Shown here: positions 1,840 through 59,498 of the stretch, in pieces
Layout of the letters: each line of letters starts with the position of its first letter
How positions within the stretch are numbered: the first letter of the stretch is position 1
DNA from: Faecalibacterium prausnitzii
GTDB lineage: Bacteria > Bacillota > Clostridia > Oscillospirales > Ruminococcaceae
NCBI RefSeq assembly: GCF_003287495.1
Contig: NZ_PRLE01000001.1
Span: forward strand, 62,001 to 126,000
Direction of reading: 5' to 3'
Length of the DNA: 64,000 bases
Notes under the pieces: model-generated
Seen by the model: the letters and a program-made list of their open reading frames with translations, nothing else
What the model was told of the DNA's origin: nothing
The model's database searches: none
Position numbers and translations under genes: made by a program

Positions 1840-3366
1840 ATGGAACTGAAGATTTTCCGGGATGCTTTGCCCGCTGCAGGTGCCAGCTGCACCCTCAAGG
1901 CGGAGCTCCCGTTGGAAACAGAGATTTTGATTTCCGATTACCTGCCCCCGGTCTTTAAACTGGTCAAGTGTTTTGTGCGGCCGGTGGTGCTGCAAAAACA
2001 GCTGCAGCCCGGGCGGCTGACGCTGGACGGCTACCTGCGCTGTACGGTCTATTATCAGGGCGAGGACGGCGCGGGCCTCTGCCAGACCGAGCAGAAGCTG
2101 CCCTTTACCAAAACGCTGGAGCTGCCGGAATTCCCATTTACGGCGTGGGCGGCACAGGTGGAGGGACAGACGGAATATGTCAATTGCCGGGTGGTCAACC
2201 CCCACCGTATCGAGGCACGGGGCGCGTTCGGGCTGGTGGTATCGGTTCATGCGCAGAACAAAACAGAGCTCATCACTGCACTCTCGGAGGGGGGCATTGA
2301 GCAGAAGTTTACCACCATCACGGGCGTGCGGCGTGCCGCTGCGCTGGAAAAGCTGATCACCGTGGAGGGGGAGCTTGCACTGGAAACAGCCCCGGCGGCA
2401 GTTCTGGACTTCTCCGGCACGGCAGAGGTCCGGGAGCTGAAAGTCTTGCGGGGAAAGGCTGTTGCCAAGGGAGAAATCAAAGGACAGTGTGCCTGGCGTG
2501 CTGAGGGAGAGACGAGCCTGCGGAGCACCAGCATCACACTGCCGTTCAACCAGGTGCTGGACGCGGAGGGACTGAGTGAGGACTGCCGCTGCCTGTGTGT
2601 GGTGGAGCCCACAGGGTTCACACTGGCACAGGGCGAGGGGGACACTTCCGGCCCCGGCACACTGACCGTGACCGCCATGCTCCGGCTGCGGGGTTGGCGG
2701 CCTTACCAGCTCCAGTGCGTGACCGACGCGTTCTCAACGAAATTTGAGACGACACAGACCATGCAGAACATCTTATCCGAGCGGATCGTCTGCCCGCTGA
2801 GTGCATCTGCTGCCCTCAAAGGTTCCGGTGCGCTGCCGGATGCCGGGGCAAAGGTGCTGGCCTGTTTTGCCTCTTTTGGCCCGGCTCAGCTGGCATTCCA
2901 GAATGGCCGCTGGAATCTGACGGCCCGGGTAACCGTCACGGCCTTTGCGGAAAACACGCTGGCCGAGTTGGAAAGCTATGAAAAAACGTTGGAAATGGAT
3001 CTTGCGCTGGATACCACGCTGCCGGAAACAGCGGATCTCTACCCGGAGTGCTGGCTGAGTGTGGAAGATCTGCAATGCACGGCACAGGGCGGTGCACTGG
3101 AAGTAACGGTGACGGCCCGGGTGGAGGGGACGATCCTGGAGCGCTGCACAACAGCCTGCGTGGAGAGCATTGCACTGGGAGAACCGCTGACTCCAGCCGA
3201 CCCGGAGATCTCGCTGCGGGTCTATTATGCACAGGCAGGGGAGCAGCTGTTTGAGATCGCCCGGAGATTCTCCGTCTCCCCAGGGCAGATGCTGGCTGCC
3301 AATGACCTGCCCGAGGGCACAGAGACCCTTGCAGCGCCTCGCAGACTGCTGGTACCCGGCGGGTAA
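1840..3366 (+). CDS. sipL: SPOCS (DUF3794) and LysM domain protein, SipL-like
   Basis: The 508-residue product looks like a spore coat morphogenetic protein. Repeated beta-rich DUF3794/SPOCS-type segments span roughly residues 30-440. A C-terminal LysM domain follows at about 455-505, with YYAQAGEQLFEIARRF, then PGQMLAANDL, ending in a short Val-Pro-Gly tail. SipL of C. difficile has this layout and binds SpoIVA through LysM. The ATG at 1840 was chosen over the ATG at 1807 because AGGAAAGGAG sits just upstream of it. The neighbour spoVM acts at the same coat-basement step. Other SPOCS-LysM proteins exist, so the exact ortholog is inferred. Confidence 0.75.
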   Translation: MELKIFRDALPAAGASCTLKAELPLETEILISDYLPPVFKLVKCFVRPVVLQKQLQPGRLTLDGYLRCTVYYQGEDGAGLCQTEQKLPFTKTLELPEFPFTAWAAQVEGQTEYVNCRVVNPHRIEARGAFGLVVSVHAQNKTELITALSEGGIEQKFTTITGVRRAAALEKLITVEGELALETAPAAVLDFSGTAEVRELKVLRGKAVAKGEIKGQCAWRAEGETSLRSTSITLPFNQVLDAEGLSEDCRCLCVVEPTGFTLAQGEGDTSGPGTLTVTAMLRLRGWRPYQLQCVTDAFSTKFETTQTMQNILSERIVCPLSASAALKGSGALPDAGAKVLACFASFGPAQLAFQNGRWNLTARVTVTAFAENTLAELESYEKTLEMDLALDTTLPETADLYPECWLSVEDLQCTAQGGALEVTVTARVEGTILERCTTACVESIALGEPLTPADPEISLRVYYAQAGEQLFEIARRFSVSPGQMLAANDLPEGTETLAAPRRLLVPGG

Positions 3367-3489
3367 TATTTGCCAAACAACCCGAGTCTTGTCTGTAAAA
3401 ACTGCACAAAGCCCGATTTAAGTATGACTTATGAAAGAAACGGGAACAAAAACTTGCGGAACCCTCTGGTAAAGTGCCGCTGGCGCTGT

Positions 3490-3495
3490 TATAAT
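3490..3495 (+). promoter_or_regulatory. -10 box upstream of the NCS2 permease
   Basis: A perfect TATAAT lies 50 nt before the permease start, but no good -35 is found at normal spacing. The 178-nt gap shows no purine-riboswitch core that I can recognise. Confidence 0.35.
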
Positions 3496-3544
3496 TTGAA
3501 TCGTCTGTTAAAAGAGAACCCCAAAAGAGGGAAGGAGCAAGGAT

Positions 3545-4945
3545 ATGTTAAAAAATACGGAGCTGGAAAGCGCAGCTTACCAGTTTGAAGCAAAAATGCC
3601 CCTCAAGCACGCCATCCCGCTGGGTCTGCAGCATGTGTTTGCCATGTTTGTGGGCAACCTGACCCCGCTGCTGATCATCACCAGCGCCTGCGGCCTGGCA
3701 GGCGGCGAGTTTGCCGACCTGCAGGTCAGCCTGCTGCAGAACGCCATGTTTGTGGCCGGCATCGTCACGCTGGTTCAGCTGTATGCAGTGGGCCCCGTCG
3801 GCGGCAAAGTGCCCATCATTATGGGCACCAGCTCAGGCTTCCTGGGCGTGTTCAACAGTGTGGCGGCTACCATGGGCGGCGGCGTCACGGCCTATGGTGC
3901 CATTATGGGCGCGTCCATTCTGGGCGGCATCTTTGAGAGTGTCCTGGGCGTCTTCCTCAAGCCTCTGCGCAAGCTGTTCCCCTCGGTCGTTACCGGCACG
4001 GTCGTGCTGTCCATCGGCCTGTCGCTGATCTCCGTCGGTATCAACTCGTTCGGCGGTGGCAACGGTGCAAAGGACTTTGGCTCTGTGGAAAACCTGCTGC
4101 TGGCAATTTTCGTGCTGGTGGTCATCCTGTTCCTCAAGCACTGGACCACAGGCTTTCTGAGCTCTTCTTCCATCCTCATCGGCATCATCGTGGGTTATGT
4201 TGCTGCCATCATGATGGGCTTTGTGCTGCCCACCACTGGTGTCACCGCTGACGGCGTGGAGTTCACCAAGGCATGGGTCCTCAACTGGGACAAAGTAGCG
4301 CAGGCCAGCTGGTTTGCCATTCCCAAGCTGGTGCCCGTTAAGATCGTGTTTGATCTGCGCGCCATCCTGCCCGTGATGGTCATGTTCATCGTCACCGCTG
4401 TGGAGACGGTGGGCGATATCTCCGGTGTGATGGAGGGCGGTATGAACCGCGAGCCCAGCGATAAAGAGCTGTCCGGCGGTGTCATCTGCGACGGCCTGGG
4501 CTCCACCTTTGCCGCCTGCTTTGGCGTGCTGCCCAACACCTCGTTCAGCCAGAACGTCGGTCTGGTGGCCATGACCAAGGTGGTCAACCGTGGTGCACTG
4601 GCTACCGGTGCAGTCTTCCTGATCCTCTGCGGCCTCATCCCCAAGCTGGGCGCACTGGTCTCCATTATGCCTCAGGCTGTTCTGGGCGGTGCGGCTGTCA
4701 TGATGTTCTCTTCCATCGTGGTGTCTGGTATCCAGCTCATCACCAAAGAGAAGATGACCCCGCGCACCCTGACCATCGTTTCCGTGGCTCTGGGCGTCGG
4801 TTATGGCATGGGTGCAAACTCCAGCATTCTGGCACACACCCCGCAGGCCATCCAGCTCATCTGCGGTGAGTCCGGCATCGTCCCGGCAGCTTTTGTGGCC
4901 ATCGTGCTCAACCTGCTGCTGCCGAAAGACGACAAAGCGGAATAA
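3545..4945 (+). CDS. NCS2-family purine (xanthine/urate-type) permease
   Basis: This is a 466-residue polytopic membrane transporter with about 12-14 hydrophobic segments, starting at ATG 3545 after GGGAAGGAG. The NCS2 signature QNVGLVAMTK is present near residue 340, and the N-terminal QHVFAMFVGNLTP segment is typical of uracil/xanthine permeases. Such proteins import nucleobases with H+ or Na+. The neighbouring molybdenum hydroxylase genes suggest a purine such as xanthine or urate as substrate; that is inference from context. The stop codon directly abuts the stop of the convergent mocA-like gene, with no terminator between them. Confidence 0.88.
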   Translation: MLKNTELESAAYQFEAKMPLKHAIPLGLQHVFAMFVGNLTPLLIITSACGLAGGEFADLQVSLLQNAMFVAGIVTLVQLYAVGPVGGKVPIIMGTSSGFLGVFNSVAATMGGGVTAYGAIMGASILGGIFESVLGVFLKPLRKLFPSVVTGTVVLSIGLSLISVGINSFGGGNGAKDFGSVENLLLAIFVLVVILFLKHWTTGFLSSSSILIGIIVGYVAAIMMGFVLPTTGVTADGVEFTKAWVLNWDKVAQASWFAIPKLVPVKIVFDLRAILPVMVMFIVTAVETVGDISGVMEGGMNREPSDKELSGGVICDGLGSTFAACFGVLPNTSFSQNVGLVAMTKVVNRGALATGAVFLILCGLIPKLGALVSIMPQAVLGGAAVMMFSSIVVSGIQLITKEKMTPRTLTIVSVALGVGYGMGANSSILAHTPQAIQLICGESGIVPAAFVAIVLNLLLPKDDKAE

Positions 4946-5593
4946 TTACAGCATCGCTTCCAGTTTCTGCAGGGCTTCCGGGGTGTCGGCATCCCACAGC
5001 TCTTCGTGGTGAGCGGTATAAAAACAATGTACCTGTTCCGGATACTGCCGGAGCAGAAAACTGCCACCCCTGCCCTCGGGCAGAGTGCGCAGGGCGGGGA
5101 AATACCCGCTGTCAAACAGAACGGGACTTCCGACCAGGGGTGTCGGGTCATCTTTGGCCCGATATGCCAGCCGGAAGATCATCCGTTCTGTTTCTTTTTG
5201 TGTCTGGAGGTGCTCTGCAAAGGCGCGGAGCAATGATTCTACGCTCTCCCGCCGCAGCAGAGGCTGATCTCCGGGCAGGAACATGCAGCCCGCAAGGTCA
5301 GGCCGCTCTGCCAGCAGCGCTTCCAGTCCCAGCCGCACCGTGTCGTTCCGGCCTGGCAGAGCGTGGAGCAGGCAGGGAACGCTGACTTCTCTGCAGAGCG
5401 TTTCTACCTCCGGGGAGCGGGCCACTACTACCCGTGAAGCCAGAAGCGGCGTGTCCGTAGCGGCAAAAGCGCGGCGGAGCATGGGCTCTCTGCCGGGGCC
5501 AAAGGGTGTCAGCAGCTTGTTGGAGCCAAAACGGGTGGAAAGCCCCGACGCCATGATGACACACCCGACGGGCAAGGTCTTGTTTTCTGCCAT
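4946..5593 (-). CDS. mocA: MocA/MobA-like molybdenum cofactor nucleotidyltransferase
   Basis: This 215-residue protein is of the GT-A nucleotidyltransferase fold. The N-terminal nucleotide loop CVIMASGLSTRFGSNKLL carries the G-x-x-x-R-x-G-x-x-K pattern, and FLPGDQPLL corresponds to the metal-binding PGDxP loop. MocA adds CMP to molybdopterin for xanthine dehydrogenase-type enzymes. This fits its position divergent from the hydroxylase operon, with a 107-nt shared upstream region. MobA (GTP) or another sugar-type transferase cannot be excluded from motifs alone, but context favours MocA. Its gene ends exactly where the convergent permease ends. Confidence 0.82.
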   Translation of the reverse strand: MAENKTLPVGCVIMASGLSTRFGSNKLLTPFGPGREPMLRRAFAATDTPLLASRVVVARSPEVETLCREVSVPCLLHALPGRNDTVRLGLEALLAERPDLAGCMFLPGDQPLLRRESVESLLRAFAEHLQTQKETERMIFRLAYRAKDDPTPLVGSPVLFDSGYFPALRTLPEGRGGSFLLRQYPEQVHCFYTAHHEELWDADTPEALQKLEAML

Positions 5594-5622
5594 AAAAAGT
5601 CTCCCTTACAATCGCGGCAAAA

Positions 5623-5649
5623 TTGCTGTCTTATCAATAGCATTATAAA
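5623..5649 (+). promoter_or_regulatory. Possible promoter of the selenium/molybdenum hydroxylase operon
   Basis: TTGCTG (5623-5628) and TATAAA (5644-5649) are separated by 15 nt in an AT-rich 107-nt region shared with the divergent mocA-like gene. Spacing is short, so the assignment is tentative. The reverse strand of the same region holds TATAAT (5642-5647) for mocA. Confidence 0.3.
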
Positions 5650-5700
5650 ATAAATTGTGTTAAAATAAAAGTAATCACCGAAAAAAGAGAGGAACTGCGT

Positions 5701-6480
5701 ATGATGACGATTCGGGAATATAAAAAAGCCGAGAGCCTGGAAGAAGCATGGCAGCTCAACCAGAAAAAACCCAACCGTGTTCTGGGTGGAATGATCTGGC
5801 TCAAGATGGAGAAGATCAACGTTGGTACTGCCATTGATCTGTCCGGCTTGGGGCTGGACACCATTGAGGAGACGGACGAGGGCTTCTCCATTGGTGCCAT
5901 GGTCACGCTGCGCCAGCTGGAGCTGCACCCCGGCCTCGCTGCCTATACGGACGGTGCCGTGCGGGAATCGGTGCGGCACATCGTGGGCGTGCAGCTGCGA
6001 AACCTCGCCACGGTGGGCGGCAGCATTTACAGCCGCTTTGGCTTTTCCGATGTTCTTACCATGTTCCTGGCGCTGAATGCTTCGGTGGAACTGTATAAAG
6101 GCGGCATCGTCCCGCTGGCGGAGTATGCCCAGCGCCCCTATGACCGGGATATTCTGGTGCGGGTCATTGTGCCAAAAGAAGACGCAAAATTCTGCTACCA
6201 GTCGGTGCGCAATAGTCAGACAGATATTCCGGTGCTGACCTGTGCGGCCGCAAAGAACGCCGCCGGGGAGTATCGCTTTGCCATCGGGGCCCGCCCGGGC
6301 AAAGCCGTGCTCTATACCCTGCCGGCCGATGCAGGGGAGACGCCGGAGCTCACGAGCGCCCGGTTTGCTGCCTCCATCCGGAGCAGGATCAAGACCGAGA
6401 GCAACATGCGCGGCAGTGCGGAATACCGCAACCATCTGGCAGGTGTGCTGGTCAAGCGCGCCGTCAAGCAGCTGGGCTGA
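5701..6480 (+). CDS. Molybdenum hydroxylase FAD-binding subunit
   Basis: This 259-residue protein is the FAD subunit of a xanthine dehydrogenase-family enzyme (XdhB/CoxM type), passing electrons between iron-sulfur clusters and NAD or another acceptor. The flavin-binding segment VGVQLRNLATVGGSIYS (about residues 96-112) is diagnostic. AGAGAGGAAC precedes ATG 5701, and a second ATG follows directly at 5704. The iron-sulfur subunit starts 19 nt after the stop. It heads the operon that also carries selenium genes. The substrate of the complex is not fixed by this subunit. Confidence 0.88.
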   Translation: MMTIREYKKAESLEEAWQLNQKKPNRVLGGMIWLKMEKINVGTAIDLSGLGLDTIEETDEGFSIGAMVTLRQLELHPGLAAYTDGAVRESVRHIVGVQLRNLATVGGSIYSRFGFSDVLTMFLALNASVELYKGGIVPLAEYAQRPYDRDILVRVIVPKEDAKFCYQSVRNSQTDIPVLTCAAAKNAAGEYRFAIGARPGKAVLYTLPADAGETPELTSARFAASIRSRIKTESNMRGSAEYRNHLAGVLVKRAVKQLG

Positions 6481-6499
6481 GAGAGGAGACGACCATATT

Positions 6500-6973
6500 A
6501 TGCAGATCAATCTTATCTTAAACGGCACCAAGGTGTCGGTCGATGTGGCCGCGGACACCCTGCTGCTGGATCTTGTGCGCAGCCAGGGCTGTGCCAGTGT
6601 CAAGCGCGGCTGTGAGACCTCCAACTGCGGTTTGTGCACGGTGTTCCTGGAGGACAAGCCCGTCCTTTCCTGCTCCGTTCTGGCTGCCCGTGCCGATGGC
6701 AAACGGGTCACGACACTGGAGGGCCTGCAGGAAGAAGCCGCGGAGTTTGGTGCATTCATTGCGGACCAGGGCGCAGAGCAGTGCGGCTTCTGCAACCCGG
6801 GCTTTATCATGAACGCCCTCGCCCTTTTCCGGGAAAAAGAATCCCCCACGGAAGAGGAAATCAAAGAATATCTTTCCGGCAACCTCTGCCGCTGCTCGGG
6901 CTATGAGGGCCAGCTGCGGGGTATTTTGAATTTCCTTGCCTGGAAAAAACAGAAACAGGAGGCCGCCGAATGA
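6500..6973 (+). CDS. Molybdenum hydroxylase 2Fe-2S subunit
   Basis: This 157-residue iron-sulfur subunit is of the XdhC/CoxS type. The plant-ferredoxin-type cluster ligands are Cys38, Cys43, Cys46 and Cys58. The second cluster, nearer the Mo site, uses Cys95, Cys98, Cys130 and Cys132 (CGFC and CRC). Both clusters are complete. The ATG at 6500 was chosen because GAGAGGAG lies just upstream and the protein then has the normal family N-terminus; the open frame upstream belongs to the FAD gene region. The stop overlaps the next start in ATGA, implying translational coupling with the Mo subunit. Confidence 0.93.
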   Translation: MQINLILNGTKVSVDVAADTLLLDLVRSQGCASVKRGCETSNCGLCTVFLEDKPVLSCSVLAARADGKRVTTLEGLQEEAAEFGAFIADQGAEQCGFCNPGFIMNALALFREKESPTEEEIKEYLSGNLCRCSGYEGQLRGILNFLAWKKQKQEAAE

Positions 6974-9258
6974 AAACCGTCAGCAAAGCATACCGCAAAA
7001 AAGATGCCATGCAGCTGGTAACGGGCCAGCCAGTTTACATGGACGATCTCGTTCCGGCCAACTGCCTCATCGTCAAGCTGCTCCGCTCGCCCCACGCCAA
7101 CGCGATTGTCAAGACCATCAATACGGCGGTGGCCAAAAAGGTGCCGGGCATTGAGGCGATTTTTACCTGGGAAGACGTCCCGCAGGATGCTCCCCGGTAT
7201 ACCCAGGCAGGCCAGACGTTCCCGGAGGCCAGTCCCCGTGACCGCCTGCTCATCGACCGCCATGTCCGTTTTGTGGGCGATGTCGTTGCCATTGTGGCCG
7301 GCAAAGACGAAAAATGCGTGGACAAGGCCCTCCGGCTCATCAAAGTGGAGTACGAGGTGCTGGACGCTGTTTTGGATTACCACACGGCCAAAGATAACCC
7401 CGTTCTGGTCCATCCGGAGGAAAACTGGGAGGCCCTCTGCCCGGTTGGAGCCGACAACAAACGCAACCTTTGTGCCCATGGTGAGGAGGGAGACGGCGAC
7501 ATTGAAGCTGTGCTGGCAAACAGCGATATCGTCATTGAACACACCTACCATACCAAGGCCTGCCAGCAGGCCATGATGGAAACATTCCGCACGTATTGCT
7601 CCATTGATTTGTATGGACGTCTGAACATTCTCAGCTCGACGCAGATCGTCTTCCATACCCGCCGCAATGTGGCCAATGCCCTGCATATTCCCAAATCCAT
7701 GATCCGGGTCATCAAACCCCGCGTCGGCGGCGGTTTTGGGGCCAAGCAGACCAACGTCTGCGAGGTTTACCCGGCTTTTGTGACCTGGAAGACCAAGAAA
7801 CCCTCCAAGATCATTTTCAGCCGGGTAGAAAGCCAGATCGCTTCTTCGCCCCGCCATGAGATGGAGATCCATCTCCGGCTGGGTGCTACCAAAGAGGGCA
7901 TCGTCAAAGGCATTGATATGCATACGCTCTCCAATACGGGCGCTTACGGCGAGCACGGCCCCACCACGGTGGGCCTGTCCGGCCACAAATCCATCCCGCT
8001 TTATGCCAAGGCAGAAGCATTCCGCTTTACCTATGATGTGGTCTACACCAACCACATGTCGGCGGGTGCTTACCGCGGTTACGGCGCAACGCAGGGCCTG
8101 TTTGCGGTGGAATCCGCAGTCAATGAGCTGGCGGCAAAACTCCATATGGATCCGTTTGAAATCCGCCAAAAGAACATCGTCAAAGAGGGCGACTACATGC
8201 CCGCGTACTATGGGGCCACCAACACCAGTTGCGCGCTGGACCGTTGCCTGGCCAAAGTGCATGAGATGATCCGCTGGGACGAGAAATACCCGGCCCGCGA
8301 CCTGGGCAACGGTAAAGTCCGTGCCGTCGGTATGGGCATGGCAATGCAGGGCTCTGGTATTTCCGGCATGGATGTGGGCAGTGCGACCCTCAAAGTCAAC
8401 GACGAGGGCTTCTACAGCCTCGTCATCGGTGCAGCCGATATGGGGACGGGCTGTGACACCACGCTGGCACAGATCGCAGCTGAGGTGCTGGACTGTGAGC
8501 TGGATGACATTACCGTTTTTGGTGCCGATACCGATACTTCACCTTATGATTCCGGTTCCTATGCCTCCAGTACAACGTATGTCACCGGCAAGGCTGTGGA
8601 AAAATGCGCCCTCAAGCTCCGGGAGCAGATCAGCAAGCTGGGCGCTGAGATGTTGGAATGTGCCCCGGATGAAGTGACCTTTGACGGAAGAAAAGTCTAT
8701 GTGGACGCTGCACCGGAGCGCGGCGTTTCGCTGGCGGAGATCGTGAGCGCTTCCCAGTTCGGCCACATGGTCCCGCTGGAAGTTACCGAGACCCATACCT
8801 CTCCGCTGTCGCCTCCGCCGTACATGGTGGGTGCTGCGGAAATCGAGCTGGACAAAGAGACCGGCGAAGTCAAGGTTCTGGAATTTGACGCCTGTGTGGA
8901 CTGCGGCACGCCCATCAACCCCAACCTGACCCGGGTACAGGCGGAGGGCGGTATCCTGCAGGGCATCGGCATGACCCTGACCGAGAACATTACCTATGAT
9001 GCCAAGGGATACCCGATGGAAAATTCGCTCTTCCAGTATAAGATCCCGGCCCGTGTGGATATTGGACACATCCACGTGGAGTTTGAGAACAGCTATGAGC
9101 CAAACGGCCCGTTTGGTGCGAAATCCATCGGTGAAGTTGTCATTAACACACCGCTGCCGGCAATCTCGGACGCTATTTACAACGCCATCGGCACCCGCTT
9201 CTATGAGCTGCCCATTACACCGGAGCAGGTGGCCATGGCGGCAGCGGAAAAAGAATAA
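6970..9258 (+). CDS. Molybdopterin-binding catalytic subunit of a (probably selenium-dependent) hydroxylase
   Basis: This is a 762-residue Mo subunit of the xanthine dehydrogenase family. Cofactor and active-site motifs are visible: RVGGGFGAKQ near residue 255, AGAYRGYGATQ (substrate-site Arg) near 365, GAADMGTGCDTT near 490, and GAKSIGE with the likely catalytic Glu near 722. Around residue 200 the segment QQAMMET replaces QEHFYLET of bovine xanthine oxidase, so the position of Glu802 appears to be Gln. The flanking selD, yedF, yqeB and yqeC genes mark it as a selenium-dependent molybdenum hydroxylase with a labile Se ligand. Substrate is unproven; purine is suggested by the nearby permease. 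Confidence 0.9.
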   Translation: MKTVSKAYRKKDAMQLVTGQPVYMDDLVPANCLIVKLLRSPHANAIVKTINTAVAKKVPGIEAIFTWEDVPQDAPRYTQAGQTFPEASPRDRLLIDRHVRFVGDVVAIVAGKDEKCVDKALRLIKVEYEVLDAVLDYHTAKDNPVLVHPEENWEALCPVGADNKRNLCAHGEEGDGDIEAVLANSDIVIEHTYHTKACQQAMMETFRTYCSIDLYGRLNILSSTQIVFHTRRNVANALHIPKSMIRVIKPRVGGGFGAKQTNVCEVYPAFVTWKTKKPSKIIFSRVESQIASSPRHEMEIHLRLGATKEGIVKGIDMHTLSNTGAYGEHGPTTVGLSGHKSIPLYAKAEAFRFTYDVVYTNHMSAGAYRGYGATQGLFAVESAVNELAAKLHMDPFEIRQKNIVKEGDYMPAYYGATNTSCALDRCLAKVHEMIRWDEKYPARDLGNGKVRAVGMGMAMQGSGISGMDVGSATLKVNDEGFYSLVIGAADMGTGCDTTLAQIAAEVLDCELDDITVFGADTDTSPYDSGSYASSTTYVTGKAVEKCALKLREQISKLGAEMLECAPDEVTFDGRKVYVDAAPERGVSLAEIVSASQFGHMVPLEVTETHTSPLSPPPYMVGAAEIELDKETGEVKVLEFDACVDCGTPINPNLTRVQAEGGILQGIGMTLTENITYDAKGYPMENSLFQYKIPARVDIGHIHVEFENSYEPNGPFGAKSIGEVVINTPLPAISDAIYNAIGTRFYELPITPEQVAMAAAEKE

Positions 9259-9259
9259 G

Positions 9260-9961
9260 ATGCTGGACGAAACACAATTTCCATTCTTGGCTGAGAAAGG
9301 CCATATCGTTTCACTGGTGGGCGGTGGCGGGAAAACCACCCTGCTGCACGCCATGGCGGCGCACGGTGCCCGCAAAGGCTGGCGGGTGCTGGCTTCCACT
9401 ACCACTCACATCCAACGCCCGAAAGAACCACTTTTGGCCAGGACGAACGCGGAGCTTGCAGCTCTCTGGACGAGTGGCAACTATGCGGTAGCAGGAGCCC
9501 CGGCCCCGGACAACAAACTGACACAGCCGCCGCAGCTGGAACGCTGGATGGCGCAGGCAGACGCGGTCTTTCTGGAAGCAGATGGCGCAAAGCATCTGCC
9601 CTGCAAGGCCCCGGCGGCTCATGAACCAGTGCTGCTGCCTCAAAGTGATATTGTGCTGGCAGTGGCAGGGCTCTCCGCAGTGGGAAAGCCGCTGCAGGAA
9701 GTCTGCTTCCGGCTGGAAACGGCCTGCACATTGCTGGGCGTTCCGCCGGAGACGATCCTGACGCCGGAATTGCTGGCGAAGCTGCTGGCCGATGAACAGG
9801 GCGGGCGCAAGGCTGTTGGAGCGCGCCATTTTTATGCGGTACTCAACCAGGCCGATACGCCGCAGCGCCAGGCCGCAGGCGAGAAAACCAAAGAACTGCT
9901 GCGGGCGCGGTATGGCGTCTCGGTGGTACTGACAACATTTTCGGAAAAGGAGCGTGCCTAA
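9260..9961 (+). CDS. yqeC: Selenium-dependent hydroxylase accessory ATPase-like protein YqeC
   Basis: This 233-residue protein begins with a P-loop, SLVGGGGKTTLL, near residue 20, followed by ASTTTHI and a FLEADGAKHLPCKAP segment near residue 110 typical of the YqeC family. YqeC is a marker of selenium-dependent molybdenum hydroxylase loci and is thought to act in cofactor maturation; its reaction is not established. ATG at 9260 starts directly after the Mo subunit stop (9256-9258). The gene stops at 9961, and selD begins at 9962 without a gap, so it sits in the same transcript. Confidence 0.88.
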   Translation: MLDETQFPFLAEKGHIVSLVGGGGKTTLLHAMAAHGARKGWRVLASTTTHIQRPKEPLLARTNAELAALWTSGNYAVAGAPAPDNKLTQPPQLERWMAQADAVFLEADGAKHLPCKAPAAHEPVLLPQSDIVLAVAGLSAVGKPLQEVCFRLETACTLLGVPPETILTPELLAKLLADEQGGRKAVGARHFYAVLNQADTPQRQAAGEKTKELLRARYGVSVVLTTFSEKERA

Positions 9962-11002
9962 ATGCCAGACGGAGAGAAGATCGTTTTCTGTACAGGCGGC
10001 GGCTGTACCGCAAAGCTTGGGGCAGGAGTGCTGAGCCGTATCCTGGAAAAGCTGCCCCGGGGCGAGAAAGACCCGAATCTGCTGGTCGGCTACGACAGCC
10101 GGGACGATGCCGCCGTTTATAAAATCACGGAGGATATCGCACTGGTACAGACCGTGGACTTCTTTCCGCCGATGGTAGATGACCCTTACACATTCGGGCA
10201 GATCGCGGCCGCTAACGCCCTCAGTGATGTTTATGCAATGGGCGGCGAAGTGAAGACGGCGCTGAACCTTGTCTGTTTCCCGGAGAGCATGGATCTGAAC
10301 GTTCTGGGAGAGATCCTGTGCGGCGGTGCGGAAAAAGTCGCCGAAGCGGGCGGGATCCTTGCAGGAGGGCATTCCATTGCAGACACGGGAGTCAAGTACG
10401 GCCTCTCGGTCACGGGCCTGGTAGATCCGCACCACCTCTATGCCAATGACGCCGGGCGGCCCGGAGACAAGCTCATCCTGACCAAAGCACTGGGCGTGGG
10501 GCTCATCTGTACCGCCAATCGGGTGGGGGAAGCTGCCCCGGAGCATCTGGCAGGGGCGATCCAGTCCATGACGACACTGAATAAAACGGCGGCTCAGATC
10601 AGCCGGAAATATGCTGTCCATGCCGCGACAGATGTGACGGGATTCAGCTTCCTCGGCCATCTGCACGAGATGATGGGCGGGAAACTTGCCTGCCGGGTGG
10701 ATGCCCGGCGGGTCCCGGTTTTGCTGGGTGCATGGGAAGCGGCCGATGCTTTCCTGTACACAGCGGCGGGCCAGCGCAACCGCAATCACACCGGGCCCTT
10801 TGTCCGGTTTGAGAATGTGCCGTTTGCGATGGAAGAAATTTTATTTGACCCACAGACTTCCGGCGGTTTGCTGCTGGCTGTGGCACCGCAGGATGCCGAT
10901 GCACTGGAAGCTGAACTGAAAGAGGTTGGTCTGCCTGCAGCCATTGTAGGCAAAATTTTGGAAAAAGAAGAGAAACAGCCGGAAATCACGGTTATATTCT
11001 GA
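9962..11002 (+). CDS. selD: Selenide, water dikinase (selenophosphate synthetase)
   Basis: SelD makes selenophosphate from selenide and ATP. The 346-residue product has an AIR-synthase-like fold. Its glycine-rich N-terminal loop, CTGGGCTAK, provides Cys15 and Lys18 where E. coli SelD has Cys17 and Lys20; the second Cys of the E. coli motif is Ala here. Downstream segments [20 protein letters not shown] and FDPQTSGG are typical. The active residue is Cys, not selenocysteine. No selA or selB lies in the window, so selenophosphate may serve the hydroxylase cofactor ('orphan SelD' trait) rather than selenoproteins. Co-transcribed with yqeC and yedF. Confidence 0.95.
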
Positions 11003-11020
11003 TATTAGGGGGGAACACTT

Positions 11021-11626
11021 ATGGTAAAAGTAGACGCGCGCGGGGATGCCTGCCCGCTGCCCGTTGTCAAGGCGAAAAAGGCCATTGCAGAGCTGAATGG
11101 AGCCGGTGAGGTGGAAATTCTGGTCGATAATGAGATCGCAGTCCAGAACCTGACCAAAATGGCCCAGCAGAAAGGCCTTGTTTACAGTGCTGAGAAGCTG
11201 GCAGAACGGGAGTATTCGGTCCGCTTTACGGTTGGTAAAGCGGTACCGGAGCGTGAGGAAAAAACAGAAGCCTGTGCACCGGATACCCGTACCGATACAG
11301 TGGTTGTCATCGCCTCGGATCAGATGGGCGAGGGGGCCGAGGAACTGGGCAAAACCCTGCTCAAAGCCTTTGTGTTCTCGCTCACCCAGCAGGATAAACT
11401 GCCCAAGACGATACTGCTCTATAACGGCGGCGCATACCTGACTTGTGAGGGTTCGCCCATGCTGGAAGACCTCAAGGCACTGGAGGCCGAGGGCGTGGAG
11501 ATTCTGACCTGCGGCACCTGCCTGAATTTCTACGGCCTGACGGAAAAGCTTGCGGTGGGCGGTGTGACCAACATGTATGTCATTGCCGAAAAGATGCTTG
11601 GCGCCGGGAACGTGGTCAAGCCGTGA
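11021..11626 (+). CDS. yedF: Sulfurtransferase-like selenium metabolism protein YedF
   Basis: This 201-residue two-domain protein has an N-terminal TusA-like domain with the CPLP motif (Cys11) and a C-terminal DsrE-like domain from about residue 85, with LYNGGAYLTCEGS and CGTCLNFYGL. The family occurs in genomes with SelD and is thought to handle selenium or sulfur as persulfide-type species; the exact chemistry is unknown. RBS GGGGGGAA precedes the ATG. Its stop overlaps the GTG start of the cysteine desulfurase gene (GTGA), implying tight coupling and a likely donor-acceptor relationship. Confidence 0.9.
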   Translation: MVKVDARGDACPLPVVKAKKAIAELNGAGEVEILVDNEIAVQNLTKMAQQKGLVYSAEKLAEREYSVRFTVGKAVPEREEKTEACAPDTRTDTVVVIASDQMGEGAEELGKTLLKAFVFSLTQQDKLPKTILLYNGGAYLTCEGSPMLEDLKALEAEGVEILTCGTCLNFYGLTEKLAVGGVTNMYVIAEKMLGAGNVVKP

Positions 11627-12762
11627 TTTATCTGGACAATGCCGCGACGACTCTTCATAAACCGCCGCAGGTAGGGCAGGCTATGCTGGAAGCTCTGCAG
11701 ACAGCGGGCAACCCGGGCCGCGGAGCACACGAGCCGACTCTCCATGCGGCACGGCTGGTCTATGGAACGCGGGAGGCACTGGCAGAACTATTCCATGCCG
11801 AAAGTCCCGCCTGTATTGCCTTTGCTTCCAATGCGACGCAGGCCCTCAATACGGCGATCAACGGTTTGATCCGCCCGGGCGACCATGTCATTACAACGGT
11901 GTGTGAGCACAATTCAGTCCTCCGCCCGCTGTACCGTTTGCGGCAGCAGGGGGCAGAATTAAGCTTTCTGGGAGTCGATGCCCGCGGTGTGCTGCAGTGC
12001 GACCAGTTGGAAACGCTGCTGCGCCCCAATACCAAGGCGATCGTAGTCACCCATGCTTCCAATGTGACCGGAAATAGAACCGATCTGGCGCGGGTATCTA
12101 CCTTTGCCAAAAGGCATGGACTCTTGTTCATCGTAGATGCCGCGCAGACGGCGGGAGTCCACTCCATTGATGTGCAGGCGCTCGGCATGGACGTGCTCTG
12201 CTTTACCGGTCACAAAGGCCTGCTGGGCCCGCAGGGTACGGGCGGTTTCTATGTCCGCCCGGGGCTGCGGATCGCACCGCTGGTGGTGGGCGGAAGCGGG
12301 GTTCACAGCTTTGACGAAAACCATCCGGCCGAAATGCCAACGGCGCTGGAAGCCGGGACGCTCAACGTTCCGGGTATTGCGGGTCTGGGCGCTGGGGTGC
12401 GGTGGATTCTGGAGCAGGGAGTGGAACTGCTTCATGCCCGGGAAACCGCGCTGGCCTGCCTGTTTTATGAGCAGGTGCGCAGCCTGCCCGATGTAACGCT
12501 TTATGGCGATTTTGCAGCACAGGAGCGTGCGCCCATTGTCTCGCTGAATCTGGCTGGAGAAGACTCCGCCCGGGTGGCAGACATTCTATGGGAAGATTAC
12601 GGCATCTGCGTGCGGGCCGGTGCGCACTGTGCTCCGTTGATGCACAAGGTATTGGGGACCGTAGAGCAGGGTGTGGTGCGGTTCAGCTTTTCACACACGA
12701 ACACCGAGCAGGAAGTGCTGCAGGCCGCAGCTGCGGTCCGCCAGCTGGCGCAGGAGGAATAA
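11623..12762 (+). CDS. Class V aminotransferase / cysteine desulfurase family protein (CsdB-like)
   Basis: This 379-residue PLP enzyme starts with GTG at 11623 overlapping yedF by 4 nt. The N-terminal YLDNAATT is the standard NifS/SufS opening, the PLP Lys lies in FTGHKGLLGPQG near residue 200, and a C-terminal Cys in VRAGAHCAPL near residue 335 is the probable persulfide nucleophile. The family releases sulfur from cysteine or selenium from selenocysteine. Between yedF and DUF3343 it probably supplies selenide or persulfide for the hydroxylase cofactor rather than general Fe-S assembly; this is inference from context. Confidence 0.9.
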   Translation: MIYLDNAATTLHKPPQVGQAMLEALQTAGNPGRGAHEPTLHAARLVYGTREALAELFHAESPACIAFASNATQALNTAINGLIRPGDHVITTVCEHNSVLRPLYRLRQQGAELSFLGVDARGVLQCDQLETLLRPNTKAIVVTHASNVTGNRTDLARVSTFAKRHGLLFIVDAAQTAGVHSIDVQALGMDVLCFTGHKGLLGPQGTGGFYVRPGLRIAPLVVGGSGVHSFDENHPAEMPTALEAGTLNVPGIAGLGAGVRWILEQGVELLHARETALACLFYEQVRSLPDVTLYGDFAAQERAPIVSLNLAGEDSARVADILWEDYGICVRAGAHCAPLMHKVLGTVEQGVVRFSFSHTNTEQEVLQAAAAVRQLAQEE

Positions 12763-12763
12763 G

Positions 12764-12994
12764 ATGCGTGCAAAACGGCCTTATATCGTCCTTTCATTCC
12801 ATGCGACCGTGGAAGCCATGGCTTGGGAAAAGCACTGCACGGAAGCCAATATCCCGGGCCGTTTGATTCCGCTGCCACGGGAGCTCTCGGCAGGGTGCGG
12901 CCTTGCGTGGCGGATGCTGCCGGGGGACTGGCAGCAGTGGCAGTCAAAGCTTGACCGAAATGCCTTTGATGCAATTGCAACGGTAGAACAATAA
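12764..12994 (+). CDS. DUF3343 small protein, putative Se/S carrier
   Basis: This 76-residue protein starts at ATG 12764, one base after the desulfurase stop, with GGAGG upstream. It opens with RPYIVLSFHATVEAMAWEK and contains a PRELSAGCGLAWR segment; the Cys in SAGCG is the DUF3343 hallmark. The family is small, often adjacent to yedF and the desulfurase, and is suspected to carry sulfur or selenium. It is likely a partner of those two genes here. Function is not proven. Confidence 0.8.
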   Translation: MRAKRPYIVLSFHATVEAMAWEKHCTEANIPGRLIPLPRELSAGCGLAWRMLPGDWQQWQSKLDRNAFDAIATVEQ

Positions 12995-13011
12995 ACACAA
13001 GGAGAAACCAG

Positions 13012-14067
13012 ATGGAACACCGCACATTTTTGGATGCGCTCGACGCCCAAAAAGATGCACAGGATTTTTTGCTGGCCACGGTTCTGGAGGGCCAGCAACA
13101 GGGGACCGCATTGCTGCTCTGCGATGGACAAGTGGCATGGACGTCCGCACCGGAAACGCTTCTAACCCAAAATCTTTCTGCATTGAAAAAATGCACGACT
13201 TCCGGCGTGTTTACGCTGGGAGATACGCGCGTTTTTGCCGAGCGTTTTGGTGCCGGGGCACGTTTGGTCATCTGCGGAGGCGGACATGTAGCAGCGGCGG
13301 CGGTCCGGCTGGCAAAGCTGCTGGATCTGCCCGTTACCGGGCTGGAAGATCGTCCGGAATATGCAGATGCACTGCGGGAAACAGGGGCGGATCGAGTGCT
13401 CTGCGCGCCATTTGAAACATCTCTGGCGCAGATACCGGGCAGTGCAGAGACATACTTTTGTGTGCTGACCCGTGCCCATGCGTATGACGTCACCTGCCTG
13501 AAGCAGATCTTGCAAAAACCGGCGGCCTATGTGGGCATGATGGGCAGCCGGGGACGTTCGGAACTGGTGCGCCGCCAGCTGGCAGAGGCAGGCCTGGACC
13601 CGGCACGGGTAGCGCGGCTCCATGCCCCCATCGGCCTTGCCATCGGGGCAAAAACGGCGCAGGAGATCGCGCTGTCCATTTTGGCGCAGATCGTGGAGAT
13701 CAAAAGCCATCGCCAACTGACAGAGGGGTTTACGCCAGAAATCCGGGCAGCCTGGGCACAGTGCCGTCAGGAGCAAACGGATGCTGTGCTGGCAACCATC
13801 GTTTCCCGCCACGGCTCCATGCCCCGAGAGGTGGGCACCAAGATGCTCATTCTCCCGGATGGCAGTACGGCGGGCAGCGTGGGCGGCGGCATTATGGAAT
13901 ACCGTGCCCGGCAGCTGGCAGGAAAAATGCTGGCAGGTACGGAAGCTCCGCAGCAGCTGGCGTCGTTTGCCACGGGACTGGAAGACGATGAGAAAGCGCT
14001 GGCAGCCTGCGGCGGCTCGATGGAACTTTTCTTACAGGTTTTAGCGGGAGGCACAGAGGCAAAATGA
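13012..14067 (+). CDS. XdhC/CoxI-family molybdenum hydroxylase maturation protein
   Basis: XdhC-type proteins bind molybdenum cofactor and promote its sulfuration or insertion. In this 351-residue protein the Rossmann-like domain comes first: RLVICGGGHVAAAAVRLAKL near residue 85, then VGMMGSRGRSELV near 175. The CoxI-type domain comes last, with VLATIVSRHGSMPREVGTKM near 260 and GSVGGGIMEY near 290. That order is the reverse of classical XdhC. ATG 13012 follows AGGAGAAACCAG. Its stop overlaps the yqeB start in ATGA. Context ties it to the selenium-dependent enzyme. Confidence 0.85.
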   Translation: MEHRTFLDALDAQKDAQDFLLATVLEGQQQGTALLLCDGQVAWTSAPETLLTQNLSALKKCTTSGVFTLGDTRVFAERFGAGARLVICGGGHVAAAAVRLAKLLDLPVTGLEDRPEYADALRETGADRVLCAPFETSLAQIPGSAETYFCVLTRAHAYDVTCLKQILQKPAAYVGMMGSRGRSELVRRQLAEAGLDPARVARLHAPIGLAIGAKTAQEIALSILAQIVEIKSHRQLTEGFTPEIRAAWAQCRQEQTDAVLATIVSRHGSMPREVGTKMLILPDGSTAGSVGGGIMEYRARQLAGKMLAGTEAPQQLASFATGLEDDEKALAACGGSMELFLQVLAGGTEAK

Positions 14068-14879
14068 AACGAGATTCCCTGATTATCGTGCGGGGCGGCG
14101 GCGACCTTGCCACGGGCACCATCCACCGGCTGTGGTCCGCTGGCCTGCGGGTTCTGGTACTGGAAACCGAGCATCCCGCCGCCATCCGTCGGCAGGTCTC
14201 TCTCTGTGAGGCGGTTTACGAGGGCGAGACGACGGTGGAGGGGCTGCGTGCTGTCCGCATTTCCAAACAGGAAGAGGCGGAGGCTGTCTGGGCACAGAAT
14301 GCGGTCCCTGTTTTGATCGACCCCAAAGGGGAGAGCATCCGCACTTTAAAACCGGACGTGGTAGTGGATGCGATTCTCGCCAAGAAAAACCTTGGCACTA
14401 CCCGTGAAATGGCTTCGCTGACCATTGCCCTTGGCCCGGGCTTTACAGCCGGGCAGGATGTGGACGTGGTGGTGGAGACCAAACGCGGCCACAAGCTGGG
14501 CCGGATCATCCGGGAGGGCGCGGCGACCCCCAACACTGGCGTTCCGGGTGTCATTGGCGGCTATGCCGCCGAGCGGGTGCTCCATTCGTCGGCACAGGGT
14601 ATTTTCCGCGACCTGCACGCCATCGGTGATTTTGTCGAGGCCGGGGAGGCCATTGCCAAGGTGGAAACACCGGCGGGCGAAGAAGTGCTTGTAAAAACGC
14701 AGATCGCGGGGATCCTGCGCGGCCTGCTGCGGGACGGTTACCCTGTGGTTCCGGGTTTCAAAGTGGCAGATGTGGACCCGCGCAAAACAGAACTGGAAAA
14801 CTGTTTCCTCATCTCGGATAAAGCTCGCTGCATTGCGGGCAGTGTGCTGGAGCTTGTAGTTGCGCAGCTCTGGAAATAA
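14064..14879 (+). CDS. yqeB: Selenium-dependent molybdenum hydroxylase system protein YqeB (EF2563 family)
   Basis: This 271-residue YqeB protein is a marker for the selenium-dependent molybdenum hydroxylase trait. It opens with IIVRGGGDLATGTIHRLW, a Rossmann-type nucleotide loop. A central PDVVVDAILAKKNLGT and a later ALGPGFTAGQDVDVV segment are family-typical. The C-terminal third has a biotinyl/HlyD-like GDFVEAGEAIAKVETPAGE stretch. Its role is probably in selenium insertion or cofactor maturation but is not established. It is the last gene of the operon; a strong terminator follows 12 nt after the stop. Confidence 0.9.
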   Translation: MKRDSLIIVRGGGDLATGTIHRLWSAGLRVLVLETEHPAAIRRQVSLCEAVYEGETTVEGLRAVRISKQEEAEAVWAQNAVPVLIDPKGESIRTLKPDVVVDAILAKKNLGTTREMASLTIALGPGFTAGQDVDVVVETKRGHKLGRIIREGAATPNTGVPGVIGGYAAERVLHSSAQGIFRDLHAIGDFVEAGEAIAKVETPAGEEVLVKTQIAGILRGLLRDGYPVVPGFKVADVDPRKTELENCFLISDKARCIAGSVLELVVAQLWK

Positions 14880-14890
14880 GAGAATCAATC

Positions 14891-14926
14891 AAAAGGCCCT
14901 GCTCCGTAGTTGGAACAGGGCCTTTT
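14891..14926. terminator. Bidirectional terminator between yqeB and the RmlD-like gene
   Basis: A near-perfect stem, AAAAGGCCCTG with CAGGGCCTTTT, extends through CTCC/GGAA pairing with flanking T on one strand and A on the other. It ends the plus-strand selenium operon and the minus-strand azl unit. Confidence 0.88.
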
Positions 14927-14934
14927 ATGCGCTG

Positions 14935-15780
14935 TCATTCAAAATGACCGAAACCGTAATCATCGAGACACTGTTGGAATGCCTGAATGGTAGAATCAAA
15001 CCGGATGCCAAAATCTTTCAACTTTTCGCCGCTCATGGCAAGGTTTCGCTCCCAATGGTCTTTTTCAAGCGGGACTTCCACCCCCAGAAGCCGGGCGAAG
15101 CGGGAAACAGTCTCAAACATGTCGCAGTCGTTTCCACTGCCAAAATTGTAAACACCACCGGGCAGCTCCATGGCCGGGATGAGTTTGTCAATGACTTCCC
15201 GTACATAGCTGACGCCGCGGAAATCCTGTTCTGAAAAATGCAAGGCAGTGCCTGTTTTGGCGGCACTCAGCAGGTTTAGCGGCAGGTTGCCCCGGATAGG
15301 GAGCCGATAGCCCGGGAAATCATACATCCAGGCTGCCCGCAGCAATACGGCGTCCGAGGTGATGGCAAGCACCCGCTGCTCGGCTTCCAGCTTGTGGCAG
15401 CCATAGACATTGGCCGGGGCAAGAGAAAGCGTTTCGGGCAGAGGGCCGCTTCTCTTACAGCCAGCGTATACCTGATCGGAGCTGAACGCCAGCAGCTTTG
15501 CTCCGGTTTCAGCAGCCGCTTTTGCAATCCATTCGGGCAGCAGGACATTCGCCCGGAGTGATTCTTCCGGATGGCTGGCACAATAGGCTGTATTGGAAAG
15601 AGCTGCGGTATGGACGATGACGTCCGGCTTTTCCCGGGCAATCAGAGCACGCACAGCGGCTTCATCAGAATCGGCGGAAAATCCATGGGGAAACGCGCAG
15701 AGCTCGTACCTCTCACGCCACTGGTCGAGGATACGAGCCCCTACAAAACCACCGGCACCCGTTACCAAAATCTTCCTCAT
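14935..15780 (-). CDS. RmlD-like NAD(P)-dependent sugar nucleotide reductase/epimerase (SDR family)
   Basis: This 281-residue short-chain dehydrogenase-type protein starts MRKILVTGAGGFVG, a dinucleotide-binding loop. It has SSDQVYAG and a Tyr-x-x-x-Lys catalytic pair in VYGCHKLEAEQ near residue 140, as in dTDP-4-dehydrorhamnose reductase. ATG at 15780 was chosen because AAAGGGA lies upstream and the glycine loop starts there. It is the third gene after azlC and azlD with a 13-nt gap. No other sugar genes are near, so its substrate is unknown and the link to the transporter is unexplained. Confidence 0.75.
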   Translation of the reverse strand: MRKILVTGAGGFVGARILDQWRERYELCAFPHGFSADSDEAAVRALIAREKPDVIVHTAALSNTAYCASHPEESLRANVLLPEWIAKAAAETGAKLLAFSSDQVYAGCKRSGPLPETLSLAPANVYGCHKLEAEQRVLAITSDAVLLRAAWMYDFPGYRLPIRGNLPLNLLSAAKTGTALHFSEQDFRGVSYVREVIDKLIPAMELPGGVYNFGSGNDCDMFETVSRFARLLGVEVPLEKDHWERNLAMSGEKLKDFGIRFDSTIQAFQQCLDDYGFGHFE

Positions 15781-59210: not shown

Positions 59211-59253
59211 AAGAAAACGCCCTCTGCCAAACGTGAAATTTGGCAGAGGGCGA
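59211..59253 (-). terminator. T-box terminator before tyrS
   Basis: On the minus strand, CGCCCTCTGCCAAATTT pairs with AAACGTTTGGCAGAGGGCG-type sequence and is followed by TTTTCTTTT. It competes with the antiterminator formed by the T-box sequence. Confidence 0.9.
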
Positions 59254-59498
59254 GAAAAATCGCGGTACCACCTCTGTTTGCCGCTCCCTCACGGAAACGG
59301 CCTCACGAGTGCACTCCTCAGAGACGGAGGACACTCCTGCGTTTGTAACGCTCGCACGCGGCACAGCCTACTGGAAAATTCGTTCAGCCTGCAGCTCCGG
59401 GAGGTATTTCGCCTGCTGTTCTGCACGCCCCTTGCACCAACCGGGGCCTCTCTGGGCAGAACCGTTCAGGGTACTTATTCCCGTCATCGCTTTTCACA
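59211..59498 (-). ncRNA. Tyrosine T-box riboswitch leader of tyrS
   Basis: The T-box sequence AGGTGGTACCGCG lies at 59262-59274 (minus strand), before a GC-rich terminator and tyrS. The 5' half has a long stem I with the AGAGAGG bulge and a GGTTGGTGCAAGG distal loop. The codon UAC (59404-59406) in GAAATACC on the 3' side of stem I is the likely specifier, matching tRNA-Tyr. Uncharged tRNA would bind and favour the antiterminator. The base after the specifier is C, whereas a purine is usual there. Confidence 0.92.

Follow-up and report, generated by a model that had tools for sequence, protein, structure and literature searches.

A selenium-cofactor gene set with an orphan selD beside a xanthine-dehydrogenase-type molybdenum hydroxylase in Faecalibacterium prausnitzii

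Introduction

How selenium gets onto the molybdenum cofactor is an unsolved problem. Clostridioides difficile, one of the organisms compared here, also makes selenoproteins. Haft and Self (2008, PMC2276186) proposed a selenium-cofactor system of SelD, YqeB and YqeC, and Table 1 of Zhang et al. (2008, PMC2432076) places Faecalibacterium prausnitzii among the organisms with an orphan SelD. In this study, we analysed a stretch of 64,000 nucleotides (the window) from another F. prausnitzii genome (assembly GCF_003287495.1, contig NZ_PRLE01000001.1, positions 62,001 to 126,000), in which positions 4946-14879 hold selD together with the other marker genes of that system and the genes of a molybdenum (Mo) hydroxylase.

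The closest described system belongs to the same genus. In the table of Zhang et al. (PMC2432076), the MobA-related, Mo-subunit, HP2 (yqeC), SelD, SirA-like (yedF), XdhC and HP1 (yqeB) genes of F. prausnitzii are marked as one operon. The lengths given there for the Mo subunit (2289 bp), yqeC (702 bp), XdhC (1056 bp) and yqeB (816 bp) equal those in the window, whereas SelD (1038 versus 1041 bp), yedF (633 versus 606 bp) and the MobA-related gene (684 versus 648 bp) differ; the table has no columns for the flavin adenine dinucleotide (FAD) subunit, the iron-sulfur (FeS) subunit, the desulfurase or DUF3343. The system is already described, its genus-level twin having been published in 2008, and the window therefore offers a useful test system and not a new kind of system. 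The idea of a selenium-dependent hydroxylase, put forward for this locus in a first-pass annotation, is likewise not new (Haft and Self 2008; Zhang et al. 2008, who tabulate F. prausnitzii). Our literature search for a selenium-dependent molybdenum cofactor in Faecalibacterium found nothing beyond PMC2432076, and the available portions of PMC12341817 and PMC12649162 do not report the locus in this genus.

Two other systems were also compared. Enterococcus faecalis V583 (EF2563-EF2571; PMC2276186, PMC2432076) also has an orphan selD with yqeB, yqeC, yedF, a desulfurase, a MobA-like gene, a hydroxylase and XdhC, but the gene order is different and a single protein, EF2570, carries the Mo and FeS domains. 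C. difficile (Johnstone and Self 2024, PMC11448449) shares yqeB, yqeC, selD and hydroxylases resembling xanthine dehydrogenase (XDH), and genetic evidence connects its system with xanthine and urate; unlike in the window, its genes are scattered and there are five hydroxylase loci. PMC5322559 deals with DUF3343 and YedF. Compared with these, the window presents a compact one-hydroxylase system without selenocysteine (Sec) genes, in a genus from which gut strains have been cultured. Some relatives with a similar hydroxylase and no yqeB provide a clean setting in which to ask whether the maturation genes alone set selenium versus sulfur. The locus is thus of modest interest as a natural comparison with and without selenium, and it may prove relevant to how purines and urate are turned over in the gut.

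Gene content and organization of the locus

The genome (2.68 Mb, 19 contigs) is given as 100% complete. Gene families were assigned by profile scans against curated NCBIfam/TIGR and Pfam cut-offs. The features are as follows, with scores in bits and, after a slash, the cut-off.

3545-4945, plus strand: NCS2 purine/xanthine permease, outside the ten-gene unit (TIGR00801 ncs2 312.4/291.8; TIGR03173 pbuX 372, below 414)
4946-5593, minus strand: MocA-like NTP transferase, putative Mo-cofactor nucleotidyltransferase (PF12804 78.6/27; TIGR03310 83.8, below 186.45)
5701-6480, plus strand: FAD-binding hydroxylase subunit (PF00941 89.4, PF03450 29.8)
6500-6973, plus strand: [2Fe-2S] hydroxylase subunit, start codon at 6500 (PF01799 85.2, PF00111 29.5)
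6970-9258, plus strand: Mo-binding catalytic subunit, XdhA type, 762 aa (PF02738 233.6, PF20256 242.2, PF01315 83.9; NF043082 597.9, below 780)
9260-9961, plus strand: YqeC selenium-cofactor protein, with GGGGKTT read as a P-loop (TIGR03172 202.6/73.05; PF19842 129.8)
9962-11002, plus strand: SelD selenophosphate synthetase, free of in-frame TGA and internal stops, with Cys10 and Cys15 near the N-terminus (TIGR00476 383.9/125)
11021-11626, plus strand: YedF (TusA and DsrE-like), with Cys11, Cys164 and Cys167 (TIGR03527 219.5/110; PF01206 60.1; DsrE 21.8, just below 22.7)
11623-12762, plus strand: cysteine desulfurase/selenocysteine lyase-like protein (TIGR01977 418.4/377; SclA NF040779 341, below 525)
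12764-12994, plus strand: Se_S_carrier (DUF3343), 76 aa (PF11823 65.1/25)
13012-14067, plus strand: XdhC-type Mo-cofactor protein (XdhC_C PF13478 134.9/29.7 at residues 85-227; XdhC_CoxI PF02625 71.2/24.3 at residues 252-311)
14064-14879, plus strand: YqeB, selenium-cofactor trait marker (TIGR03309 351.6/220)
14890-14927, strand not assigned: terminator-like hairpin of 16 pairs that ends the unit (called on the minus strand; near-palindromic)

The eleven genes named in the first-pass annotation, from mocA to yqeB, were all recovered at their coordinates and in their families. Its further claim that they are made as one unit can hold only for the ten genes on the plus strand (5701-14879), whose nine gaps measure 19, -4, 1, 0, 18, -4, 1, 17 and -4 bp. 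It does not hold for the mocA-like gene, which is encoded on the minus strand, diverges from the ten-gene run across 107 bp (5594-5700) and lies tail to tail with the NCS2 permease; the eleven genes are therefore not one transcript.

Several assignments are less specific than the gene names. The Mo subunit scored below the XdhA equivalog cut-off and is XDH-like without being filed as XdhA; the mocA product scored below the MocA/YgfJ equivalog cut-off and is filed as a MobA-like NTP transferase only. The best NCBIfam scores of the FAD and FeS subunits (80.4/241.5 and 141.7/290) and those of XdhC (NF045664 228/350, TIGR02964 131/162) are also below cut-off. Judged by their profile scores, the mocA product, the three hydroxylase subunits and XdhC are placed only to the level of the Pfam family.

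Orphan status of SelD in the genome

The first-pass annotation had noted that the window lacks selA and selB and proposed a genome-wide search for these genes and for tRNA-Sec. Within the reach of the profiles, that search extended the absence to the entire genome. There was no match to selA, and none over the cut-off to selB, for which the best score (178.7 bits, below 242) came from a 407-aa frame that we read as EF-Tu. No tRNA-Sec passed the threshold, the best candidate scoring 42.9 bits where the gathering score is 47 (strict filters, with 26 of 387 first-look candidates scored). The selenouridine gene mnmH had no match (14 of 17 candidates scored), nor was it found over the cut-off in the 148 genomes of the family survey below. 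SelD is thus an orphan by the absence of selA, selB, mnmH and tRNA-Sec over their cut-offs, not all tRNA-Sec and mnmH candidates having been scored. A selenocysteine-based use of SelD in this genome was rejected from the selA, selB and tRNA-Sec searches, and a selenouridine use from the mnmH search.

Exactly one selD passed the cut-off in the genome, and it is the one in the locus. There is one moaA. Only one MoCoBD_1 hydroxylase match occurs in the genome, the Mo subunit of the locus, so the product of SelD has one obvious client. The selenium-cofactor trait is present by its usual markers: selD, yqeB and yqeC are over their curated cut-offs, with a Mo hydroxylase in the same genome and locus. 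This supports the earlier suggestion of selenium-cofactor marker genes beside an orphan selD in a gut member of the Oscillospiraceae, here Faecalibacterium.

Distribution in Faecalibacterium and in the family

Among 31 Faecalibacterium genomes, yqeB was found in 18 and a hydroxylase in 26, all 18 yqeB genomes included; 5 of the 31 had neither. A close hydroxylase within an integrated operon occurs in 14 genomes, counting that of the window. In all 13 others the genes follow the same order and mocA is divergent, which argues that the arrangement is not due to chance, and a close NCS2 permease adjoins the locus in 11 of these 13 (not in loci L158 and L168). The Mo subunit of the window is 85-86% identical to those of other genus members, 86% at best. 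The gene content and order of the locus, its uniqueness in the genome, the lack of any sign of selenocysteine or selenouridine uses and its conservation in the genus are established.

A hydroxylase 63-66% identical to that of the window occurs in 12 genus genomes, of which 4 have a separate selenium module and 8 have no yqeB, the gene on which presence was scored. The firmest yqeB-negative members are G149 and G154 (99% complete); the remainder are 77-93% complete. The four separate modules (L163 and L165-L167, in genomes G164, G169, G170 and G171) differ in gene order, are found on a separate contig except in G171, where the distance is about 12 kb, and have a yqeB 48-60% identical to that of the window. 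This suggests that the genus may have acquired a second, differently ordered selenium module separately.

In the family sample (148 genomes, that of the window included), selD was over the cut-off in 22 and selA in 10, all of which have selD. For yqeB the number was 13, with 2 more in pieces (G069 and G046). Both selD and yqeB were present in 14 genomes, selD only in 8, yqeB only in 1 and neither in 125 (Fisher test, 3e-13, uncorrected for relatedness); the sole yqeB genome without selD, G146, is 78% complete. A MoCoBD_1 gene was present in 15 of 15 yqeB genomes. Although 53 genomes passed the gathering score for tRNA-Sec, only 11 reached at least 66 bits (66-77), including all 10 selA genomes. 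Eleven selD genomes lack both selA and a clear tRNA-Sec, and 10 of them have yqeB, the exception being G130 (84% complete). The selD of G130 (contig C47, 1238-2161) has an in-frame TGA in a genome without a selA match or clear tRNA-Sec; either the assembly could lack the Sec genes or this selD could be stranded. G025 and G137 each have two selD matches over the cut-off, with yqeB present and selA absent.

A scan of a wider collection confirmed at least 508 stretches, from which the best 80 were kept, each with flanks of at most 10 kb and many cut by contig ends. Of these 80, 39 contained a match to selD, 63 one to yqeC and 26 a Mo-subunit match of any kind. Nearly the whole gene set was present in L064, L068, L083, L088 and L103, in the same or a different order.

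Molybdenum subunits with and without yqeB

A maximum-likelihood tree was built from 61 Mo subunits (39 from yqeB-positive and 22 from yqeB-negative genomes), all with at least 45% identity and 690 aa. The tree requires 11 changes of yqeB status, at least 9 of them forced by starred branches. Shuffled labels needed a mean of 18.2 changes, with 1 shuffle in 500 as low; this clustering of the yqeB label weighs against free exchange. The motif GGGFGAKQ, the Arg-His of PRH and the glutamate of SIGE are present in all 61 subunits and YRGYGATQ in 58 of 61; these motifs, which we take to line the Mo pocket, are common to yqeB-positive and yqeB-negative genomes. The Mo subunits of G168 (no yqeB, 92% complete) and G170 (yqeB, 89% complete) are 97.1% identical, with opposite yqeB status.

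Because hydroxylases of genomes without selD or yqeB have the same pocket motifs, the enzyme sequence does not reveal selenium dependence, and the yqeB label does not prove selenium in any of the 61 rows. From these comparisons we infer that the maturation genes, and not the enzyme, would decide whether selenium is used, if it is used at all. At the window locus, too, it is the maturation genes and not the enzyme sequence that point to selenium. We tentatively suggest, with more doubt than confidence, that one hydroxylase scaffold may be loaded with sulfur or selenium according to the presence of a gained-and-lost cassette (SelD, YedF, Se/S carrier, YqeC, XdhC and YqeB), in which case Faecalibacterium species that carry the cassette and those that lack it would have natural selenium and sulfur versions of one kind of enzyme.

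Proposed pathway and alternative explanations

We believe it quite likely that this orphan-SelD selenium-cofactor locus encodes a three-subunit (FAD, 2Fe-2S, Mo) hydroxylase of the xanthine-dehydrogenase type together with the proteins that load its cofactor. Each step of the pathway is predicted from the gene families. The desulfurase would free selenium (and sulfur) from (seleno)cysteine; handing the selenium on would fall to the Se/S carrier and YedF, and SelD would produce selenophosphate. The MocA-like protein would turn the Mo cofactor into its dinucleotide form, and XdhC would hold the cofactor. YqeB with YqeC would then direct the exchange of the terminal sulfur ligand for selenium on XdhC, followed by insertion into the apoenzyme. 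The enzyme would oxidise a purine of the xanthine or hypoxanthine type or reduce urate, with uptake by the adjoining NCS2 permease. The labile selenium on the Mo centre and the identity of the substrate are predictions of the same kind.

Several observations weigh against this reading. The missed XdhA and MocA equivalog cut-offs leave the substrate and the nucleotide unsure. In C. difficile, the published account describes a yqeC deletion without phenotype and growth on hypoxanthine that is independent of selD and yqeB (PMC11448449). In the family sample, 16 MoCoBD_1 genomes have no yqeB, and selD is absent from 13 of them; 11 of these 13, with neither gene over its cut-off, carry a hydroxylase 58-65% identical to that of the window, which makes a sulfur-loaded form plausible. 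Ten alignment columns of the Mo subunit were also compared with yqeB status, and no more than five of the nine independent pairs differed at any of them, with a lowest p of 0.125; since fewer than six differing pairs cannot reach 0.05, this null reflects low power as much as a lack of signal. The raw contrasts were strong at some columns: Phe283 in 23 of 39 yqeB-positive and 0 of 22 yqeB-negative rows, Lys276 in 18 and 0, and Thr498 in 15 (14 of them from one genus clade) and 0. With no p below 0.125 over the nine pairs, Phe283, Lys276, Thr498 and the other columns were not retained as residues that discriminate selenium from sulfur, within the low power of this comparison.

A first alternative is that an ordinary sulfido ligand suffices, with the selenium genes facultative or serving selenium scavenging or detoxification and the enzyme indifferent to selenium. 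The hydroxylases of the same family and with the same motifs in yqeB-less genomes, 11 of them in family genomes that also lack selD, and the G168/G170 pair speak for this explanation. We nevertheless regard it as unlikely: the selenium module lies directly 3' of the Mo subunit (1 bp to yqeC, then 0 bp to selD) and is kept in 14 genus genomes, every yqeB genome of the family and genus samples (15/15 and 18/18) has a hydroxylase, and in C. difficile, mutation of selD or yqeB is reported to impair growth with xanthine or urate (PMC11448449). That the product of SelD goes instead to selenocysteine, to 2-selenouridine or to a further use, for example selenoneine, is highly improbable. Several traits have SelD in common, and 7 of the 22 family genomes with selD have Sec genes and no yqeB, but the genome of the window holds no selA, selB, mnmH or tRNA-Sec over the cut-offs, selenoneine genes not having been searched for. 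The enzyme could also be selenium-dependent and act on a non-purine N-heterocycle or an aldehyde, a variant of the preferred explanation that does not exclude it. The missed XDH equivalog cut-off fits this variant, as does 4-hydroxybenzoyl-CoA reductase as the best solved relative by sequence; we consider it rather doubtful, since the two top NCBIfam matches are XdhA-type xanthine dehydrogenases and the purine-type permease adjoins the locus here and in most of the other integrated genus loci.

Maturation proteins

In the window XdhC, the Rossmann domain precedes the CoxI domain, so that the protein is circularly permuted relative to the solved structures 2we7/2we8 and 3on5, which have both domains with CoxI first. 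Its model has a predicted local distance difference test (pLDDT) score of 88.6 and a predicted template modelling score (pTM) of 0.76, and the best Foldseek match is 2we8 (3e-16). Among 44 open reading frames with the Rossmann domain in loci L039-L138, 27 have the order of the window, 12 the other order and 5 could not be assigned; L041 and L042 are 91% identical, and no other pair exceeds 90%. Both orders occur at selenium-cofactor loci. Our search found no literature that joins XdhC with circular permutation, which does not mean that it is unreported.

YqeC and XdhC are fused in a single open frame at 13 loci after merging of duplicate stretches (L041, L042, L046, L085, L088, L089, L093, L094, L113, L118, L163, L165 and L166). 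The Rossmann domain comes before CoxI in 12 of the 13; in L046, CoxI was not detected. Fusions of YqeC with MocA, in either order, occur at 11 further loci (for example L077, L095 and L109). The fusions tie these maturation proteins together. HP2-MobA, HP1-MobA and HP1-XdhC fusions were already marked by Zhang et al. (PMC2432076).

The AlphaFold2 model of YqeB has a mean pLDDT of 90.6. Its best Foldseek E-values were to proteins of the aspartoacylase/desuccinylase type, at a low template modelling (TM) score of 0.28. The C-terminal part fits biotin carboxyl carrier proteins well (2d5d, TM score 0.85 by target length, 1.4 Å over 69 columns). A role as a true biotin carrier was rejected, as a 7-row alignment has no conserved lysine at the presumed position of the biotin turn. 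The YqeB of C. difficile has also been described as resembling a biotin carboxyl carrier protein (PMC11448449).

Regulatory features

A scan of positions 3300-15000 for sigma-70 promoters gave 2 sites against 3.9 expected, none of them ahead of the operon. Rfam at gathering scores gave no riboswitch over the operon; its single match in the window lies elsewhere and is a T-box leader at 59243-59496 on the minus strand (111.2 bits).

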